32,975 bases of DNA from assembly GCA_945878525.1 (NCBI GenBank), contig CAMCTU010000015.1, forward strand, positions 1-32,975, written 5' to 3'. Below the pieces are notes generated by a model. It saw nothing but the letters and a program-made list of their open reading frames with translations, had not been told where the DNA came from and searched no databases. A program made the translations under genes and the position numbers. Origin of the DNA: Sphingobacterium thalpophilum. Its GTDB lineage: Bacteria; Bacteroidota; Bacteroidia; Sphingobacteriales; Sphingobacteriaceae. Positions 5,224 through 12,111 of this stretch are shown here, one piece after another. How positions within the stretch are numbered: the stretch's first letter is position 1; each line of letters begins with the position of its first letter.

Positions 5224-5231
5224 TACCTTTG
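5224..5231 (+). promoter_or_regulatory. Possible -7 box upstream of crtA-like gene
   Basis: TACCTTTG matches the Bacteroidota primary-sigma -7 consensus TAnnTTTG. A transcript from it would start near 5238, about 24 bases before the ATG at 5262, which argues against the upstream in-frame TTG at 5229. I see no good TTTG element 19-20 bases upstream, so this is a weak call. Confidence 0.35.
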
Positions 5232-5261
5232 GAGGCTGAAACAGAATTTCTTATATACATT

Positions 5262-5984
5262 ATGTTAGTTTCCTTTATTATCGTAAGATACAGACCATTA
5301 TTCATTCCTCTCGCTATTCTTGCCATGGCAGTTCACCGTATTCCACTTTCTTTAAACAAAGCCTGCACTTTTTGGAAATTGATGGGATGTGGCAAAAATG
5401 GTTCATTTGACCTGACACCCGACTGGCAACAATGGGCATTAATGACAGTTTGGAAATCAGAAGAAGATTTAAAAAAATTTCAGCAAAATTCATTTATTGC
5501 TTGGTGGTGGAAAAAATTTACTACCGAACAATGGGTCCTTCTAGGTATTCCTTTAGGTAGTCACGGTAAATGGGATGGTAAAGACCCATTTAAAATGAAT
5601 AATTATGATTCAAACTATACCGGACCAGTAGCTGTTCTAACAAGAGCGACCATAAGGTTCAGTAAATTGACTCAGTTCTGGTCCAATGTTGAACCTGTAG
5701 CCGTAATAATGAGTAAAGCTCCGGGCTTTATAAGCTCCATTGGAATTGGTGAAGCTCCATTTTTCAGGCAGGCTACCCTGTCGATATGGAAAGATATGGA
5801 AAGTATGAAAACCTTTGCATATGGCTCTCCTGAACATGCAGAAGTGATAAGAAAAACCAGAAAACTGAACTGGTACAGTGAAGAACTTTTTGTAAGATTC
5901 CGTTTAATATCAGGATCAGGAACCAATAAAGGAGAAGACCCAATCAAAGAAATCCAACACAAGTTAATAAATTCTAAATCATGA
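5262..5984 (+). CDS. crtA: Spheroidene monooxygenase-like protein (CrtA family)
   Basis: A 240-residue protein resembling CrtA, the O2-dependent haem protein that oxidises acyclic carotenoids at C-2 in purple bacteria; relatives occur in carotenoid-making Bacteroidota. Recognisable blocks are KACTFWKLMGCG, then TRATIRFSKLTQFWSNVEPV, APGFISSIGIGEAPFFRQAT with SIWKD, and a final block of FAYGSPEHAEVIRKTRKLNW plus YSEELFVRF, colinear with CrtA and close to its length of about 240 aa. I prefer the ATG at 5262 over TTG at 5229 because family members begin with this hydrophobic strand and a -7-like box covers the TTG. No other carotenoid gene is in the window, so the true substrate is uncertain. 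Its stop overlaps the next start (ATGA). Confidence 0.85.
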   Translation: MLVSFIIVRYRPLFIPLAILAMAVHRIPLSLNKACTFWKLMGCGKNGSFDLTPDWQQWALMTVWKSEEDLKKFQQNSFIAWWWKKFTTEQWVLLGIPLGSHGKWDGKDPFKMNNYDSNYTGPVAVLTRATIRFSKLTQFWSNVEPVAVIMSKAPGFISSIGIGEAPFFRQATLSIWKDMESMKTFAYGSPEHAEVIRKTRKLNWYSEELFVRFRLISGSGTNKGEDPIKEIQHKLINSKS

Positions 5985-6238
5985 GAGTTATAGCAGAACT
6001 ACCACATCCTGATTTTAAAATAACCTTGTTCTCCATGAATCAAAAATATGTTATTAAACTGGAGAAGGGCACTTTTGAACAAATCTATAAAATATCTGAA
6101 CTGGACATCCCGGAAGGGGTAAATGGAGTTTTTCAGTTACTTGATTCCGAATTCATAAAAACAGCGGCTGAACGCTTTAATCAAATGAGGAATGATTTTA
6201 TAGAAGCGTTCAAAAGATACGATAATAACATATTATAA
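5981..6238 (+). CDS. Hypothetical protein translationally coupled to crtA-like gene (85 aa)
   Basis: An 85-residue soluble protein that I do not recognise. The first half has alternating hydrophobic residues suggesting beta strands (ITLFSMNQKYVIKLEKG); the second half looks helical and ends FNQMRNDFIEAFKRYD. There is no signal peptide, membrane helix or Cys pair. Its ATG overlaps the TGA of the CrtA-like gene (ATGA), a layout that usually means translational coupling and often a shared pathway or complex. Codon and amino-acid use look genuine. Function is unknown; an accessory role for the CrtA-like enzyme is only an inference from position. Confidence 0.75.
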   Translation: MRVIAELPHPDFKITLFSMNQKYVIKLEKGTFEQIYKISELDIPEGVNGVFQLLDSEFIKTAAERFNQMRNDFIEAFKRYDNNIL

Positions 6239-6495
6239 CGAACTGATATATAGTGGTTTATACTCATAAACAAAATTAAATTTTGTAATATAGTTCACTT
6301 TGATGTGGAAATCTCTGACGTAGCTAATTAAATAATTAATATAAATTATTATAAAACATTGATTAACAATATTTTATAATATGCAACAAAATATAATTTT
6401 ATTGCCTAAAAGTGCCAAATTTATGGGAAGTTTAGTCATTTTTATATATTTTAACACATTTTAAAAGCTAAGATATTTTTTGTTATTTTTGAGGT

Positions 6496-7026
6496 ATGAA
6501 ACTTATCAACTCCACCCGTTTTATAGTATTAACACTTCTTGTGATTGCAGCTGCTCTAAGCAGAGCACTACCCTACTTAATTCCACATACCTGGAATTTT
6601 ACAGCTATTGGTGCCTTGGCGATATTTGGCGGCGCACAGTTCAGTGATAAACGATTGGCATTTATAGTACCCATAGCAGCAATGGCAATATCAGATGTCT
6701 TTATTGGAAACGGATTCAGCCTGGTGGTTTATACAGGTTTCGTTGCAATGGTTGGCTGTGGGTTCCTGATCAGAAATAAAGTTAACACAACAAATGTAAT
6801 TTTAGCATCCTTCATAAGCGCGTCAGTTTTTTTCCTGATTACTAATTTTGCTTTTCTATACCCAAGCGCAAGGTACTCCCACAACATTTCGGGTATCCTT
6901 ACTTCTTATGCCGCAGGTCTTCCCTTCTTTAGAAACATGTTAATAGGTAATTTGGTGTTTTCATCAATTTTGTTTGGAACATTTTATCTTCTATCCAAAA
7001 GATTTATCGGACTGGCAAAAGTTTAG
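6496..7026 (+). CDS. DUF6580 family membrane protein (putative transport component)
   Basis: A 176-residue inner-membrane protein with about five to six hydrophobic helices and short loops. The NFTAIGALAIFGGAQFSDKR region, the following AMAISDVFIG and the late NFAFLYPSARYSHN match what I know as DUF6580, described as putative transport protein. Size and topology resemble the substrate-binding S-components of ECF vitamin transporters, but I see no established family motif proving that. ATG start at 6496. The 257-base upstream region is very AT-rich and shows no riboswitch. It is a single-gene unit converging on the nitrilase-like gene. The closeness of a B12 uptake locus is suggestive only. 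Confidence 0.7.
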   Translation: MKLINSTRFIVLTLLVIAAALSRALPYLIPHTWNFTAIGALAIFGGAQFSDKRLAFIVPIAAMAISDVFIGNGFSLVVYTGFVAMVGCGFLIRNKVNTTNVILASFISASVFFLITNFAFLYPSARYSHNISGILTSYAAGLPFFRNMLIGNLVFSSILFGTFYLLSKRFIGLAKV

Positions 7027-7160: not shown

Positions 7161-8222
7161 TTATATTCTGCGTGCTTCTATTTGTGCCTTTTCACCTTCT
7201 GCAGTAACTTCTTCGTGCGTTTTAAGATTAAATTCTTTTAAAATATCCTTAACACGGACATCAGGTGATAAACTTTCTAAAATAGCCCATTCTTCTTCAT
7301 GGAATACTTTTATATCCACCTTACGACCGTATTTTTTTTGAATCGCAGGAAAATGTTGAACAAAAGGCCATAGATGCAGGAAAGCTTTTTCCAAATTAAC
7401 CGGAGCACAACAAAGCTGCGGGTTCCAGAAACCTGTTTTTGCCAATTCTTCTCCCGTTATATCACATATCTTAGTCGTTCCTTTTCGGGTACTTGAAACC
7501 ACTACACACTTATGCTTCCAGGCTAGTGAGTTGATCATTTGCCCTGCTGAAAATGCTGAGGGGAAGAAAATAATCTCAGCACCCTGCTTACGGTACATTT
7601 CCCATCCATCATCCCATAAGGAATCAAAGCAAATCTGCACCCCAATTTTCCCGAAATCCGTTTGGATCACATCCTGAAACAACGGACCAGGCATCACACC
7701 ACTTTGGATCTCACCCTCAGTAGGGTGAATTTTATGATATGTACCAATACGTTTTCCCTGGCGGTCGATCACAACAGCCGATATGTAAAACATTCCATGT
7801 CCGGCCGGGGTGTCAACTGCACAGATAGTATAGCAATTGTTTTTTTTAGAAAACTCAGAAAATAGAACTAACACTTCCTCCGATTTACTGATCCTTTGTT
7901 CTACACTGAACTTGCCATCCATTTTGGTATTTGCAATGTAAAGACATTCAGGCAAGCATACTACATCAGGACTAAAGGGTTCAATTCCCTTTAGAGATTC
8001 CATCACACTTTTGACCATGCTGTCAGGTGTGTCGGCAGAGAGTTTTTCCTGTGAAAAACTTGCAATCCAAACTTCTCTTGGAAATTTTTGCCTTGGGATA
8101 AGAGTGGTACCCGGATTATGATTGCTTTCTAAGGATTCAGCTAAACCTATGTTGCCCAGAGTTGTGAGTCCGGCAGTTAAAGCTGATTTTTTCAAAAAAG
8201 TTCTTCTTGATTTTTGATGCAT
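7161..8222 (-). CDS. Carbon-nitrogen hydrolase (nitrilase superfamily) with Tat signal
   Basis: A 353-residue protein of the nitrilase/amidase superfamily, which cleaves or forms C-N bonds in amides, nitriles or carbamoyl compounds. The catalytic Glu-Lys-Cys triad is visible: E92 in CLPECL, K164 in YHKIHPTEGE and C198 in QICFDSLW. The N-terminus has a twin-arginine motif, SRRTFLKKSA, followed by a hydrophobic stretch, so export to the periplasm is predicted, which is unusual for a superfamily that is mostly cytoplasmic. I use the ATG at 8222; the longer TTG-started form adds ten residues before the Tat motif. The residues after the triad extend about 100 aa past the core. The substrate is not identifiable. 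It is 170 bases downstream of the sirtuin gene on the same strand. Confidence 0.88.
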   Translation of the reverse strand: MHQKSRRTFLKKSALTAGLTTLGNIGLAESLESNHNPGTTLIPRQKFPREVWIASFSQEKLSADTPDSMVKSVMESLKGIEPFSPDVVCLPECLYIANTKMDGKFSVEQRISKSEEVLVLFSEFSKKNNCYTICAVDTPAGHGMFYISAVVIDRQGKRIGTYHKIHPTEGEIQSGVMPGPLFQDVIQTDFGKIGVQICFDSLWDDGWEMYRKQGAEIIFFPSAFSAGQMINSLAWKHKCVVVSSTRKGTTKICDITGEELAKTGFWNPQLCCAPVNLEKAFLHLWPFVQHFPAIQKKYGRKVDIKVFHEEEWAILESLSPDVRVKDILKEFNLKTHEEVTAEGEKAQIEARRI

Positions 8223-8392
8223 TATTTGATGGATATATTTTAACAGATTCAAGCACTGACCTTAAAATAAATATAATGCTAATCTCCCGGATAATTTAGA
8301 GGCAATTTTACCCAAAGCTGAACTAGCTATATCGTTGAGTAAAAAATATGAGCAAGTCCAGCTTTTGAAGGCACAATTGAGTTGAATTTAAC

Positions 8393-9076
8393 TTATTGAG
8401 TTAAAAGGCGCTCGATCAATTCAGGTACTGCTTTAGCAGCGTTTTCCTGAATGATTTCAATATTTTTTGCAGATATTTCCAAGACATTTGGATCCACCAG
8501 AAATTTCTGCGAATTCGTAGGCACTAAATCAATAAGTCCTGCTGCCGGATAAACCTGAAGTGAAGTACCGATTACTATTACAATATCAGCTTCATAGCAA
8601 TGTTCAGCTGCTAGTTCTATCATTGGAACAGCTTCTCCAAACCAGACGACATGTGGACGCAACTGAGAGCCTAATTCACACAGTTCGCCCATTTTTAATT
8701 CCCATCCTGGAATATCATAGATCAATTTTGGGTTTCTATCCGATTGAGATTTTGTTATCTGTCCATGCAAATGAATAATTTTTGAAGACCCGGCACGCTC
8801 ATGAAGATCATCAATATTTTGAGTGATAATCGTCACATCATACATTTTTTCAAGTTTTACAATTGCATAATGTGCAGGATTAGGTTGAGCAGCAATTACT
8901 GATTTTCGACGCTCATTATAAAATTTTTGAACCAGATCAGGATTCCTTGTCCAGGCTTCGGGAGTAGCTACATCATATACATTATGCCCTTCCCACAGTC
9001 CGCCAGAATCTCTAAAAGTTTGCAAGCCACTTTCAGCAGAGATACCGGCTCCGGTAATTACAATAATTCTTTTCAT
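8393..9076 (-). CDS. cobB: NAD-dependent protein deacylase, sirtuin (CobB/SIRT5-like, zinc-less)
   Basis: A 227-residue sirtuin that removes acyl groups from lysine using NAD+. GAGISAESGLQTFR (9-22) is the NAD site, TQNIDDLHERAG (85-96) contains Q86/N87/D89, H104 in HLHG is the catalytic base, and GTSLQVYPAAG closes the Rossmann fold. Y53 and R56 in YNERR match the Tyr-x2-Arg pair that lets class III sirtuins (SIRT5, E. coli CobB) accept succinyl and malonyl groups. The four zinc cysteines expected after the catalytic His are absent, a state I believe is common in Bacteroidota homologues. It follows the Dph6-like gene by 59 bases on the same strand, downstream of btuB. Confidence 0.93.
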   Translation of the reverse strand: MKRIIVITGAGISAESGLQTFRDSGGLWEGHNVYDVATPEAWTRNPDLVQKFYNERRKSVIAAQPNPAHYAIVKLEKMYDVTIITQNIDDLHERAGSSKIIHLHGQITKSQSDRNPKLIYDIPGWELKMGELCELGSQLRPHVVWFGEAVPMIELAAEHCYEADIVIVIGTSLQVYPAAGLIDLVPTNSQKFLVDPNVLEISAKNIEIIQENAAKAVPELIERLLTQ

Positions 9077-9135
9077 CTGTTGATATTAAATTCTTTTATG
9101 CCGAACATGTGGGATGGAACCTTTGATGACTTCAT

Positions 9136-9828
9136 TCAAATAATATCCAGGTATAAAAACCCTGTATCCTCAGCCCTGTCTGTTTGTTTAATTTGCAAAG
9201 GTCTGAATACAACTTCTCCCGTTTCATAAGCTATAGGCTTTCGAAAAACCGGCCCATTATAACAAAACGTGTGGAACTCACCATTTTCTCCGAATGGATC
9301 AATCCCCTGAGGTAATTTTCTGAAGAAATTCAAAGTTAGGTGTTTACCAATCCAATCCTCCCCTAATTTGTCAGATTGAACACAACAAGTAATAGCTTCA
9401 AAACCTCCATCTAATAACTCTTTCTGAAGCTCAATCGAACTATTCATCCATAAAGGAAAGTATGTTTTCAAACCCGCCTTTGATGCTAAATCCTCCCTGT
9501 ACGTCCGAAGATCTTCCAGAAAAATATCTCCAAATACAAGGGTATCAACACCCATTTCTTTTAATTGTGTGCAGGTTACTTGAAAGACTTTTTCATAAGA
9601 AAAATTGTCAGGCTGATTAGGAACCCACATTTTAATTATTGGAAATCCCAATTGTTCAGCTTGTCTGTCAAGTACTTTTTCAGCTAATCCATGCATTGAT
9701 ATTCGCTTAAAATCACTATTTAAGGTGGTTACAAGTCCCAGTATTTCTACTTGAGGATCTTTTTTAAGCCTATTTAATGCCATTGCTGAATCCTTACCCG
9801 CACTCCAGAATAAAACTGCCTTCTTCAT
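9136..9828 (-). CDS. Dph6-like ATP pyrophosphatase (diphthine-ammonia ligase family)
   Basis: A 230-residue protein of the PP-loop ATP pyrophosphatase fold, Dph6/DUF71 type (PF01902). SAGKDSA at 9-15 is a variant of the SGGKDS PP-loop, and PFGENGEFHTFCYNGPVF near 180-200 is the characteristic second motif. In eukaryotes and archaea the family amidates diphthine on EF-2; bacteria lack that target, so the bacterial substrate is different and unproven. DUF71 genes often occur near cobalamin genes in bacteria. Here it starts 69 bases after the btuB stop, just beyond an intrinsic terminator, so it may be expressed by read-through from the B12-controlled transcript or from its own promoter. Confidence 0.88.
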   Translation of the reverse strand: MKKAVLFWSAGKDSAMALNRLKKDPQVEILGLVTTLNSDFKRISMHGLAEKVLDRQAEQLGFPIIKMWVPNQPDNFSYEKVFQVTCTQLKEMGVDTLVFGDIFLEDLRTYREDLASKAGLKTYFPLWMNSSIELQKELLDGGFEAITCCVQSDKLGEDWIGKHLTLNFFRKLPQGIDPFGENGEFHTFCYNGPVFRKPIAYETGEVVFRPLQIKQTDRAEDTGFLYLDII

Positions 9829-9841
9829 GTTAATCTGTCTT

Positions 9842-9879
9842 AAAACAAAAATAGCGATGAATTTACATCCATCGCTATT
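9842..9879 (-). terminator. Intrinsic terminator after btuB
   Basis: A perfect 10-bp inverted repeat (AATAGCGATG at 9850-9859 and CATCGCTATT at 9870-9879) with a 10-base loop is followed, on the minus strand, by a T-rich run (TTTGTTTT). It lies between the btuB stop at 9898 and the Dph6-like start at 9828, so it should end or attenuate the riboswitch-led transcript. Confidence 0.78.
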
Positions 9880-9897
9880 AATTATTTACATTAATAC

Positions 9898-11796
9898 TTA
9901 TCGGATATCCAACTTAAATCCTGCGTTAAAATTTATTCCTTTAGTTTGATAACCGGCGAATTCAACATAATCTTGATCCAGCACATTCTTTATATCTGTA
10001 AACAAGCTGAGTCTGGTTGAAACTTTGTACTGAGTATATACGTCCAGTAAATTAAATGAACCAAGTTCAGCTTCAACAGTTTTGAAAGTCTTACCATCAA
10101 AATAACGATCTCTGCGATCGCCGGTAAACTTATAAATTAAATTGAAGCTAAGTGATTTGCTTACATCTAATCCAGCATTCAATCCGAAAGAATTCTTTGG
10201 TCTTCTGAAGAGATTAAATGATGTTCCTACCGGAGTAGTCACTTCCCCATTAACATAAGCATAATAAGCATTCAGATTTAGTAAACCAGTCGGTTTGTAG
10301 CTTAATTCCACTTCGTAACCTTTATCGTTCTGCATATTTTGATTTAAATACCCAAATTTACCGGGAGAAACCTGACCAAAATCAATTACATTTTCAATAT
10401 CCCTTTTAAAATAAGAAAGTGAGAGGTTTATTTGCGACGTAAAATTAAGATCAAAACCTGCTTCGTAGGTACGGGATGTTTCAGGACTCAGGGCTAAATT
10501 TCCGTATTGTGAAAACAACTGATATAAAGATGGTACTCTGTAAGCAGAGGAAAGGTTAGCATACACCTTATAACGGTCTGCAATCAGGTAAGAGGGATTA
10601 ATAGTATAAGTAAAGTTACTTCCATAGGTGCTATGATCATTATATCTGCCACCAATTTCTGCCTGAAAACCTATTTTAGATTTAATAAAAACGGAAGAAA
10701 ACATACTTTTGATATTATTATCTGCAACCAACCTCGGGCTAAATGGATTTTTCTGTTCCGTACTCAGATTTCTGTAGGAAATACCACTAGCAATATCAAT
10801 AAAGTTATTTATAGCATAATTAAGGTTAGTTTCCAGATGGGTAATATTCCCTGTATTATTGGTTAGTGAACCCCGATTATTGTATTTATTTCTAAGGTTA
10901 TTCTGGCTTAGATTGAAATTGAGAACAGCTTTATTTAAATCGAGCTTGCCACCAATTCCAGCCAGAAATGAAGATTTGCTATAGGTATAGTCCTTTGCAT
11001 CAGCAAATGCACCATTATCAAGATCTGCGGCATTATTGTTAGCCTGGAAGTTTCCTCTTAGCAGAAATTTTTTACTGACCTGCTGCCCAATATTAAACAC
11101 CATGGATTTCTGATGGAATCCATCTTTGTCAAAGCCTGGTTCAGCATTTGCAGGAATTGCTGAAGAGAAATTCTCTGAATCCAGATTAGAGGCATTGAAT
11201 GATAAAGATGTATTTTCGATTTGTCCGCTCAAACCCAAAACTTGTTTATAAGTCCCGTAACTTCCACCGGTAGCAAGAAGATTTGCCGCTAATTTGCTGC
11301 TACCTTTTCGGGTAATTACATTAATTACCCCTGCCACTGCATCCGAACCATACAAAGTAGAATTTCCTCCTTTTAAAATTTCGATTCGTTCAATATTTTC
11401 AATTGGAATAGCAGAGATATTATATTCGCCGGAAATTTCAGAGGCATCATTAACCGGAATACCATCGATGAGTATTAAAGTATTGGCTGAACTTGCCCCA
11501 CGAAGATATACTGCTTTAACGTCTGCGGGATTACCACCATTCCCTCCAATTGTTAAGCCTGCCACATTGTTTAACAATTCAGGTAAAGTTCTACCCTGAC
11601 TTCTTGAAATTGTTTCAGCGGTAATCACCCTAACTACCTTACCGATTTCCGATAATCTTTTAGGAGAACGACTGGCTACAACCACCACTTCTTCAAGATT
11701 AGACACAGTTCTTTCTTGTGCCTGGATACTGCTATTTAGCAGTACAAGTTGTGCAAGTCCCAGACTCACGCCAACGTAAAGTTTTTTTGTTTTCAT
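9898..11796 (-). CDS. btuB: TonB-dependent outer-membrane vitamin B12 receptor
   Basis: A 632-residue outer-membrane receptor importing cobalamin or other corrinoids with TonB energy. Residues 1-26 form a signal peptide ending in the VLLNSSIQAQE region. A TonB-box-like stretch (LEEVVVVASR) precedes the plug domain, which shows GRTLPELLNNVAGL, YLRGASSANTLILIDG and a closing block of GGNSTLYGSDAVAGVINVIT. The rest is alternating strands of a 22-strand barrel with a C-terminal aromatic-rich half, ending FNAGFKLDIR. I start it at the ATG at 11796, which gives a clean signal peptide; the open frame extends 23 codons upstream but those look untranslated. The assignment to B12 rests mainly on the cobalamin riboswitch immediately upstream; size is also like BtuB. 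Confidence 0.92.
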   Translation of the reverse strand: MKTKKLYVGVSLGLAQLVLLNSSIQAQERTVSNLEEVVVVASRSPKRLSEIGKVVRVITAETISRSQGRTLPELLNNVAGLTIGGNGGNPADVKAVYLRGASSANTLILIDGIPVNDASEISGEYNISAIPIENIERIEILKGGNSTLYGSDAVAGVINVITRKGSSKLAANLLATGGSYGTYKQVLGLSGQIENTSLSFNASNLDSENFSSAIPANAEPGFDKDGFHQKSMVFNIGQQVSKKFLLRGNFQANNNAADLDNGAFADAKDYTYSKSSFLAGIGGKLDLNKAVLNFNLSQNNLRNKYNNRGSLTNNTGNITHLETNLNYAINNFIDIASGISYRNLSTEQKNPFSPRLVADNNIKSMFSSVFIKSKIGFQAEIGGRYNDHSTYGSNFTYTINPSYLIADRYKVYANLSSAYRVPSLYQLFSQYGNLALSPETSRTYEAGFDLNFTSQINLSLSYFKRDIENVIDFGQVSPGKFGYLNQNMQNDKGYEVELSYKPTGLLNLNAYYAYVNGEVTTPVGTSFNLFRRPKNSFGLNAGLDVSKSLSFNLIYKFTGDRRDRYFDGKTFKTVEAELGSFNLLDVYTQYKVSTRLSLFTDIKNVLDQDYVEFAGYQTKGINFNAGFKLDIR

Positions 11797-11911
11797 TTTG
11801 TTGTGAGATTTTGACCCACAGCAAACAGTATGAAGGAATACCAGAAATAGATCTATTCTTAGCAATAGTCCTCTCCAAGCTTCAATCCCCGAAAGCTATG
11901 AATTATAATGC

Positions 11912-12072
11912 TGAGGCAGGTCTTCTGACTTACTCCCGGTTATCCTGCCTTCCCATCCGCCCGGGGCGGAAAGTGGCTTATTTTGGATACCGTTAAGGAG
12001 AACACAGCAGCGGGACTGTCCGGGATTCTAACCCGGTTCCCTTTTAATTCCGATTTTGATTTCGGAAACCTA
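11912..12072 (-). ncRNA. Cobalamin (B12) riboswitch controlling btuB
   Basis: On the minus strand the conserved parts of a cobalamin riboswitch occur in order. First comes a GGGAA-CCGGGT-AGAATCCCGG-x-CAGTCCCGC block (12003-12041), then GCCACT near 11972-11977, then GGGAAGGCAGG (about 11944-11954), and finally the B12 box AGTCAGAAGACCTGCC (11915-11930), which differs slightly from the common AGYCAGGAGACCTGCC. GGCAGG and CCTGCC pair to close the core. About 115 bases separate the B12 box from the btuB ATG and should hold the expression platform; I see an AGCTT/AAGCT stem and the palindrome AATAGATCTATT there but cannot tell whether control is transcriptional or translational. Binding of adenosyl- or other cobalamin is expected to lower btuB expression. 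Confidence 0.95.
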
Positions 12073-12080
12073 AAGCACTA

Positions 12081-12111
12081 CAAATCTAACATAAGCTTGA
12101 AGATATTCAAA
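12081..12111 (-). promoter_or_regulatory. Bacteroidota-type promoter for the riboswitch-btuB transcript
   Basis: On the minus strand TTTG (12108-12111) is followed after exactly 19 bases by TAGATTTG (12081-12088), a full match to the phylum's -33/-7 consensus TTTG-N19-TAnnTTTG. Transcription would begin near 12075, only a few bases before the first riboswitch element, which independently supports both calls. Confidence 0.72.

Follow-up and report, generated by a model that had tools for sequence, protein, structure and literature searches.

Cobalamin riboswitch-led btuB loci of the Bacteroidota comprise the BtuB, BtuG and BtuH systems. The DUF71-B12 subgroup of the DUF71 (COG2102) family was described in 2012 by de Crecy-Lagard et al. 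(PMC3541065); according to the main text of that paper, the subgroup is marked by the motif ENGEF/YH and is proposed to stand in for bacterial CbiZ, hydrolysing pseudo-B12 to adenosylcobyric acid, which CbiB would then re-assemble. That text leaves the function of the subgroup open and does not contain the words btuB, riboswitch or sirtuin. Literature searches found no later functional report on the subgroup, no paper pairing COG2102 with btuB, none joining riboswitch, btuB and Pedobacter and, among papers containing both sirtuin and btuB, judged by titles and abstracts, none about a locus such as the one reported here, which lies in Sphingobacterium thalpophilum. The link of its DUF71 protein to B12 was already known, since the protein carries the GENGEFH motif of the published subgroup; new are the linkage of a sirtuin, a terminator at the border between uptake genes and cytoplasmic genes, the absence of CbiB and CbiZ, and the modelled likeness of a DUF6580 membrane protein to BtuM.

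Layout of the locus

The locus occupies the minus strand of the window (the whole stretch of DNA that was analysed, 32,975 nt) in the order cobalamin riboswitch, btuB-like receptor, hairpin terminator, DUF71 protein and sirtuin:

12089..11898, minus strand: cobalamin riboswitch aptamer (RF00174, 104 bits against a gathering score of 31.5)
9898-11796, minus strand: btuB-like TonB-dependent receptor (Pfam plug and barrel), with the riboswitch directly upstream
9842..9879, minus strand: intrinsic terminator (hairpin at 9879..9850, plus T tract), separating the receptor from the DUF71-sirtuin pair
9136-9828, minus strand: PP-loop ATPase of the DUF71-B12 subgroup (PF01902, 116.8 bits, cut-off 23.2)
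8393-9076, minus strand: class III (CobB/SIRT5-like) sirtuin (PF02146, 148.6 bits, cut-off 24)
7161-8252, minus strand: carbon-nitrogen hydrolase (PF00795, 75.8 bits), behind the sirtuin
6496-7026, plus strand: DUF6580 membrane protein (PF20221, 173.5 bits), convergent with the locus

Profile matches and folding of the gap bear out the original prediction, made from the sequence alone, that btuB, a Dph6-like protein and a sirtuin stand in a row on one strand with a strong terminator after btuB, and the coordinates that it gave (8393-9879) are correct. Its reading of btuB as riboswitch-led holds for the riboswitch, which is the single cobalamin riboswitch of the genome (3.07 Mb, 99% complete), but not for the receptor at the level of a BtuB equivalog: the best NCBIfam match, TonB-B12, scores 278 bits, under the curated cut-off of 599.7, and the gene is therefore called btuB-like. 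Its start is most likely the ATG at 11796, which by eye opens a signal-peptide-like stretch; the TTG at 11865 given in the list of open reading frames was rejected. The genome carries one DUF71 gene.

Homologues of the carbon-nitrogen hydrolase occupy the same place in L040, L047 and L058, that is, in a few genomes of the window's genus only, and we are unsure whether it belongs to the unit; by eye its N terminus is twin-arginine-like, and the protein is possibly an exported amidase beside the B12 locus. On the plus strand, at about 5982-6239, lies a gene for a small conserved protein of about 82-85 residues, convergent with the sirtuin gene, whose cluster (c3) is found in 55 loci, linked to a riboswitch or not, and for which the relative in L103 has no Pfam match. 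Next to it (5229-5984, plus strand) is a spheroidene-monooxygenase-like gene (NF045923, 189 bits, under the cut-off of 300), the place of which is conserved in the family (cluster c9). A protein of beta-lactamase fold (PF13354) is often encoded divergently upstream of the riboswitch, as at L069:3214-4464 and 24 similar loci (cluster c6, 25 loci).

Conservation in the Sphingobacteriaceae

The placing of the sirtuin in a B12 locus is a family-level feature of which literature searches found no report. A same-strand B12 box lies 2.1-6.5 kb upstream of 45 of the 94 sirtuin loci counted in the family, in six genera; the sirtuin that the original prediction noticed beside btuB and DUF71 is thus truly part of the neighbourhood. 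The count covers 94 of the 96 genomes with a SIR2 match, leaving out G047 (a fragment under the cut-off) and G023 (SIR2 about 20 kb from the riboswitch by coordinates); G104, with a box at 8.0 kb, and G025, in which receptor, DUF6580 and SIR2 stand in a row on a contig that ends before the riboswitch, were counted as unlinked, and G101 and G106 have no genus in the genus table. B12 boxes were located by a sequence pattern, which gave 52 in 1.56 Mb against none in one shuffle set; the eight compared by eye with RF00174 matches agreed. Among 80 named sirtuin loci, linkage was seen in nine, and a box 8.0-8.2 kb away in a further two; these eleven are all from Sphingobacteriaceae. No sirtuin-riboswitch linkage was found among about 65 loci from outside the family. 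Ten of the 45 linked loci belong to genomes without DUF71. Four genomes of the window's genus lack the sirtuin, three of them with DUF71 behind a riboswitch, which counts against the two-module model proposed below.

Gene content was surveyed in 121 genomes of Sphingobacteriaceae, 49 of which have DUF71-B12. The pairing of btuB with DUF71, whose conservation in relatives had been put forward as a check, is indeed conserved: 38 of 53 DUF71 genes have a B12 box no more than 8 kb upstream. The initial observation is right, and stronger than it was stated.

The arrangement differs between genera as follows; the names Mucilaginibacter (g13), Pedobacter (g12) and Solitalea (g5) are inferred labels, CobU, CobT, CobS, DUF5074 and the BtuF-like domain are named by Pfam, and "CobC-like" is a guess from position.

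Window's genus: riboswitch, receptor, terminator, DUF71, sirtuin
Mucilaginibacter type (g13): receptor, with or without a BtuG-like gene, DUF6580, terminator, sirtuin, with or without DUF71
Pedobacter type (g12): receptor, DUF6580, terminator, mostly a BtuF-like gene, sirtuin, DUF71
g17: receptor, DUF6580, hairpin, CobU, sirtuin, DUF71
Solitalea (g5), three of four: receptor, DUF6580, hairpin, CobU, DUF71, CobT, CobS, CobC-like gene, sirtuin

Spacing behind the border is tight: where SIR2 and DUF71 are neighbours in that order, the genes overlap by 8 or 11 bases in 13 of 20 cases, and in three loci the gaps are 0-4 bases between CobU and DUF71 and 3-12 bases between the CobC-like gene and SIR2.

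The border terminator

The hairpin at 9879..9850 on the minus strand has a stem of 13 pairs and a loop of 4 bases and is followed by the T tract. The gap between receptor and DUF71 has a folding energy of -19 kcal/mol (z = -4.4 relative to dinucleotide shuffles, none of 200 folding equally well); by itself, a plain scan for the terminator consensus returned 6 sites in the region against 5.2 expected, which is not above chance. A dispersed repeat was rejected, the hairpin sequence being present in a single copy in the 3.07-Mb genome, and an RNA hairpin fits better than a protein-binding DNA palindrome, as the arms differ by G-T pairs between species. Within the window's genus, a terminator is kept in all ten riboswitch-linked sirtuin loci, immediately after the receptor, be the next gene DUF71 or the sirtuin, and 9-26 bases separate the hairpin from the next start codon, leaving no room for a promoter behind it.

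All 45 riboswitch-linked sirtuin loci allow a border to be drawn where the uptake genes give way to cytoplasmic ones. A lenient scan finds a terminator-like hairpin at 43 of these 45 borders, against 17 of 135 shuffles. Of the 102 other gaps it marks 2, both among the 40 gaps of at least 30 bases. A strict scan finds a terminator at 29 of 45 borders and in none of the 102 other gaps; it finds none between receptor and DUF6580 in 26 loci. The sequences are alike inside a genus and unlike between genera, and the border hairpins of Solitalea (g5) have poor T tracts. The strong terminator predicted after btuB is therefore a real element, positionally conserved across genera, and it may either gate or insulate the DUF71-sirtuin pair. 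In L054, L057, L059 and L064, the terminator hairpin between DUF6580 and CobU holds a second long inverted repeat inside its loop.

The DUF6580 membrane protein

DUF6580, convergent in the window, lies inside the riboswitch-led locus in other genera; its name was not found in the literature searched. A structure predicted from 20 proteins (pLDDT 84) superposes on BtuM with cobalamin at Z 14.7 (rmsd 3.1-3.3 over about 160 residues), where helical bundles can reach Z 13-14 by chance, and ranks 1-11 of the structure comparison are all S components or CbiM, with BtuM best. The Foldseek E-value against BtuM is 0.9, at 14% identity, so the likeness is a lead; none of the cysteines is invariant in the 20 aligned proteins. 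DUF6580 might, on this modelled fold, supply the inner-membrane step of B12 uptake.

The DUF71 and sirtuin proteins

The DUF71 protein of the window has the GENGEFH motif and a SAGKDS loop. GENGE[FY]H is found in 49 of the 53 DUF71 proteins of the 121 genomes; the remaining four are second copies in genus g5 (L140, L141, L142 and L143), with GEQGEYH and the P-loop TGGKDC, in another conserved neighbourhood that is not near a riboswitch. The window's protein aligns to the archaeal Dph6-like structures 2d13 and 3rjz (E about 1e-16) and retains the serine, second glycine, lysine, aspartate, histidine and threonine of the residues that surround the ATP phosphates and are common to both subfamilies (S12, G13, G14, K15, D16, H48 and T189 of PF0828); the first glycine is alanine in it and in at least three others of the 49. 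That this Dph6-like protein is not a diphthamide enzyme, as first proposed, agrees with the replacement of the catalytic Glu188 of Dph6 (motif EGGE/DxE) by His186, and with a score of 83 bits against the cut-off of 197 for the Dph6_archaeal model. Further residues are conserved among the 49 DUF71-B12 proteins, including Cys149 and a GDxFLxDLxxYR stretch; Cys149, conserved in at least 95% of them and glycine in the Dph6-like structures, is a candidate corrinoid or catalytic contact.

For the sirtuin, the nearest solved structure is Escherichia coli CobB (1s5p), and the protein keeps the NAD and catalytic motifs GAGISAESG, TQNID and HLHG. Its score against the CobB equivalog is 199 bits, with the cut-off at 320. 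In the sirtuins of this family the zinc-binding cysteines are gone, and only a single cysteine is invariant in the 13 aligned. Y53 and R56 form a Tyr-x-x-Arg pair that is invariant in the same 13; passages of PMC10652111 describe class III sirtuins as using this pair for acidic acyl groups.

Corrinoid gene content

CbiB (PF03186) is encoded by none of the 49 DUF71 genomes and by one of the 121 genomes overall, which has no DUF71; CbiZ is found in none of the 121. CobS and CobT occur in exactly the same 13 of the 121 genomes and are absent from 39 of the 49 with DUF71, and the window's genome has no match for any of these four. The cobalamin adenosyltransferase PF01923 is present in all 49 DUF71 genomes, the window's own included (lists compared by eye); DUF71 therefore need not replace the adenosyltransferase, adenosylation is not the missing step, and a role as its stand-in was rejected.

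This gene content bears on two roles that have precedents elsewhere. The window's DUF71 protein belongs by motif to the subgroup proposed to replace bacterial CbiZ, and the distribution argument made for that replacement in the main text of PMC3541065 is in its favour; but the product would have to be taken up by CbiB, which no DUF71 genome encodes, and CobS and CobT are also missing in most. The published guess does not match the gene content of the Sphingobacteriaceae: a replacement of CbiZ that feeds CbiB cannot work in this family, and we regard the role as very improbable here. A CbiZ-like product would have no use, leaving a step on the intact imported corrinoid. The leading guess for DUF71-B12 is thus removed, at least in Sphingobacteriaceae, and the gene content points instead to such a step in bacteria that only scavenge B12. 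For the same lack of partners, corrinoid remodelling by lower-ligand exchange, one of the functions originally suggested, is unlikely in the window's genome, where a route through CbiB was rejected. The sirtuin, in turn, had been likened to Salmonella CobB, reported in passages of PMC12713380 to stand in for CobT in lower-ligand activation, and in some loci it is linked to CobU and CobS; yet CobT and CobS always co-occur, so no genome with CobS needs a stand-in for CobT, and the window's genome, having neither, lacks the partner enzymes on which the analogy depends. We give that role hardly any credence.

Association with acyl-CoA mutases

The window's genome encodes a large subunit of the methylmalonyl-CoA mutase type (TIGR00641, 730 bits), which has the MCM-pocket Tyr and Arg, as well as IcmF. 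PF01642 is present in 43 of the 45 genomes with a linked SIR2 gene versus 9 of the 49 with an unlinked one; among genomes with both riboswitch and sirtuin, the figures are 43 of 45 linked versus 8 of 29 unlinked (within-genus permutation, P = 0.001), and among riboswitch genomes 46 of 49 with DUF71 versus 23 of 45 without (P = 0.04 within genera). On the SIR2 tree, five supported independent pairs give an average of 2.7 in the same direction, 0.0 in the opposite direction and 2.3 without difference; the association of sirtuin and mutase is not significant on the tree, where five supported pairs cannot reach significance. Joint loss of receptor and mutase would account for it as well. As genera without a cobalamin riboswitch, moreover, keep the sirtuin, the association, at first taken as support, now counts as weak.

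A two-module model and its alternatives

We tentatively propose that the locus consists of two modules gated by read-through, a reading that we judge possible but short of even odds. The first module, riboswitch and btuB-like receptor (elsewhere also a BtuG-like lipoprotein and DUF6580), would capture cobalamin, and the second, DUF71-B12 and sirtuin (elsewhere with CobU, CobT, CobS or a BtuF-like protein), would work in the cytoplasm. The border terminator would step expression down between them; under B12 shortage, with the riboswitch switched on, some transcripts may, as first suggested, read through into the second module. DUF71-B12 would use ATP for a step on the corrinoid between its import and its delivery to B12 enzymes; the absent genes show that this is not lower-ligand exchange through CbiB, and the chemistry most natural to the fold may be amidation or repair of an acid in a corrin side chain. 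The sirtuin would be a class III deacylase of the ordinary kind, its gene having come to lie in the locus. It could conceivably remove lysine acyl groups when B12-dependent mutases stall and propionyl-CoA and methylmalonyl-CoA pile up, an idea drawn from passages in two papers, one on the rise of lysine methylmalonylation in human methylmalonic acidaemia (PMC10967474) and one on the reactivation of Salmonella propionyl-CoA synthetase by CobB through depropionylation (PMC8603916).

With the same tentativeness it can be argued that the terminator simply ends the riboswitch-led unit, the DUF71-sirtuin pair being transcribed apart from it, from a promoter of its own and without regulation by B12, and the shared neighbourhood reflecting function or history. 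A terminator kept at almost every border, with sequences unrelated between genera, is what such insulation would leave, and SIR2-DUF71 pairs persist without an upstream riboswitch in G038, G109 and G112. The Bacteroidota -7 element TAnnTTTG occurs in 13 of 45 border gaps against 4.7 expected from shuffles, overlapping the terminator T tract in the window; but a full -33/-7 promoter is present in only one of the 45. Separate regulation also accords poorly with the CobU, CobT, CobS and BtuF-like genes that are found beyond the same border, no B12 box intervening, and with genera g10 and g11, in which DUF71 follows a receptor or BtuG-like gene by 5-12 bases without a terminator and can therefore sit directly in the riboswitch-led unit. 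Slightly less probable, in our estimate, is that the sirtuin alone is a passenger, keeping a long-held position next to a small conserved gene while B12 genes came and went, its work unrelated to B12. The convergent small gene of cluster c3 does follow SIR2 at 30 of the 45 linked loci and at 19 of the 49 unlinked ones, and riboswitch linkage requires 12 changes on the SIR2 tree. In genera g4 and g15, which have no cobalamin riboswitch among the matches listed, 19 of the 20 genomes have kept the sirtuin, so that the protein has a B12-independent use. Yet the order within the module has been reshuffled while SIR2 has stayed on the same strand, tight against or overlapping DUF71, CobU, a BtuF-like gene or the CobC-like gene.

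A bolder form of the two-module model, which we think improbable though far less so than the CbiZ and CobT substitutions, makes the sirtuin part of a response to B12 scarcity: the riboswitch, acting through the conserved attenuating terminator, would make a SIRT5-like deacylase and DUF71-B12 rise together, so that lysines acylated by the accumulating propionyl-CoA and methylmalonyl-CoA are cleaned while imported corrinoids are repaired or amidated. If true, bacteria would have a counterpart of what sirtuins do in methylmalonic acidaemia, and the DUF71 family would gain a new reaction. With a sirtuin in the unit, protein deacylation would be coupled to the supply of the vitamin, a coupling for which the border terminator offers a simple test.

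Comparison with known systems

The DUF71 protein shares with the subgroup of PMC3541065, as the main text there presents it, the PP-loop fold, ENGEF/YH in place of the EGGE/DxE of Dph6, and a chromosomal tie to B12 uptake genes; it differs in the adjoining riboswitch-led btuB-like receptor, the sirtuin, the terminator in front and the genomes without CbiB. The sirtuin resembles the class III enzymes CobB and SIRT5 in its NAD and catalytic motifs, its Tyr..Arg pair and its nearest structure, and departs from them in its lost zinc cysteines and a score under the CobB equivalog cut-off. DUF6580 has a predicted fold that superposes on BtuM, the solitary B12 S component, unlike which it has no invariant cysteine, and sequence identity between the two is low. 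Like the btuB loci of other Bacteroidota, the locus is headed by a riboswitch-led TonB-dependent receptor, joined in some genera by a surface beta-propeller-like lipoprotein (DUF5074); unlike them, it includes DUF6580 and, behind a conserved terminator, a second, cytoplasmic module of DUF71-B12 and sirtuin.
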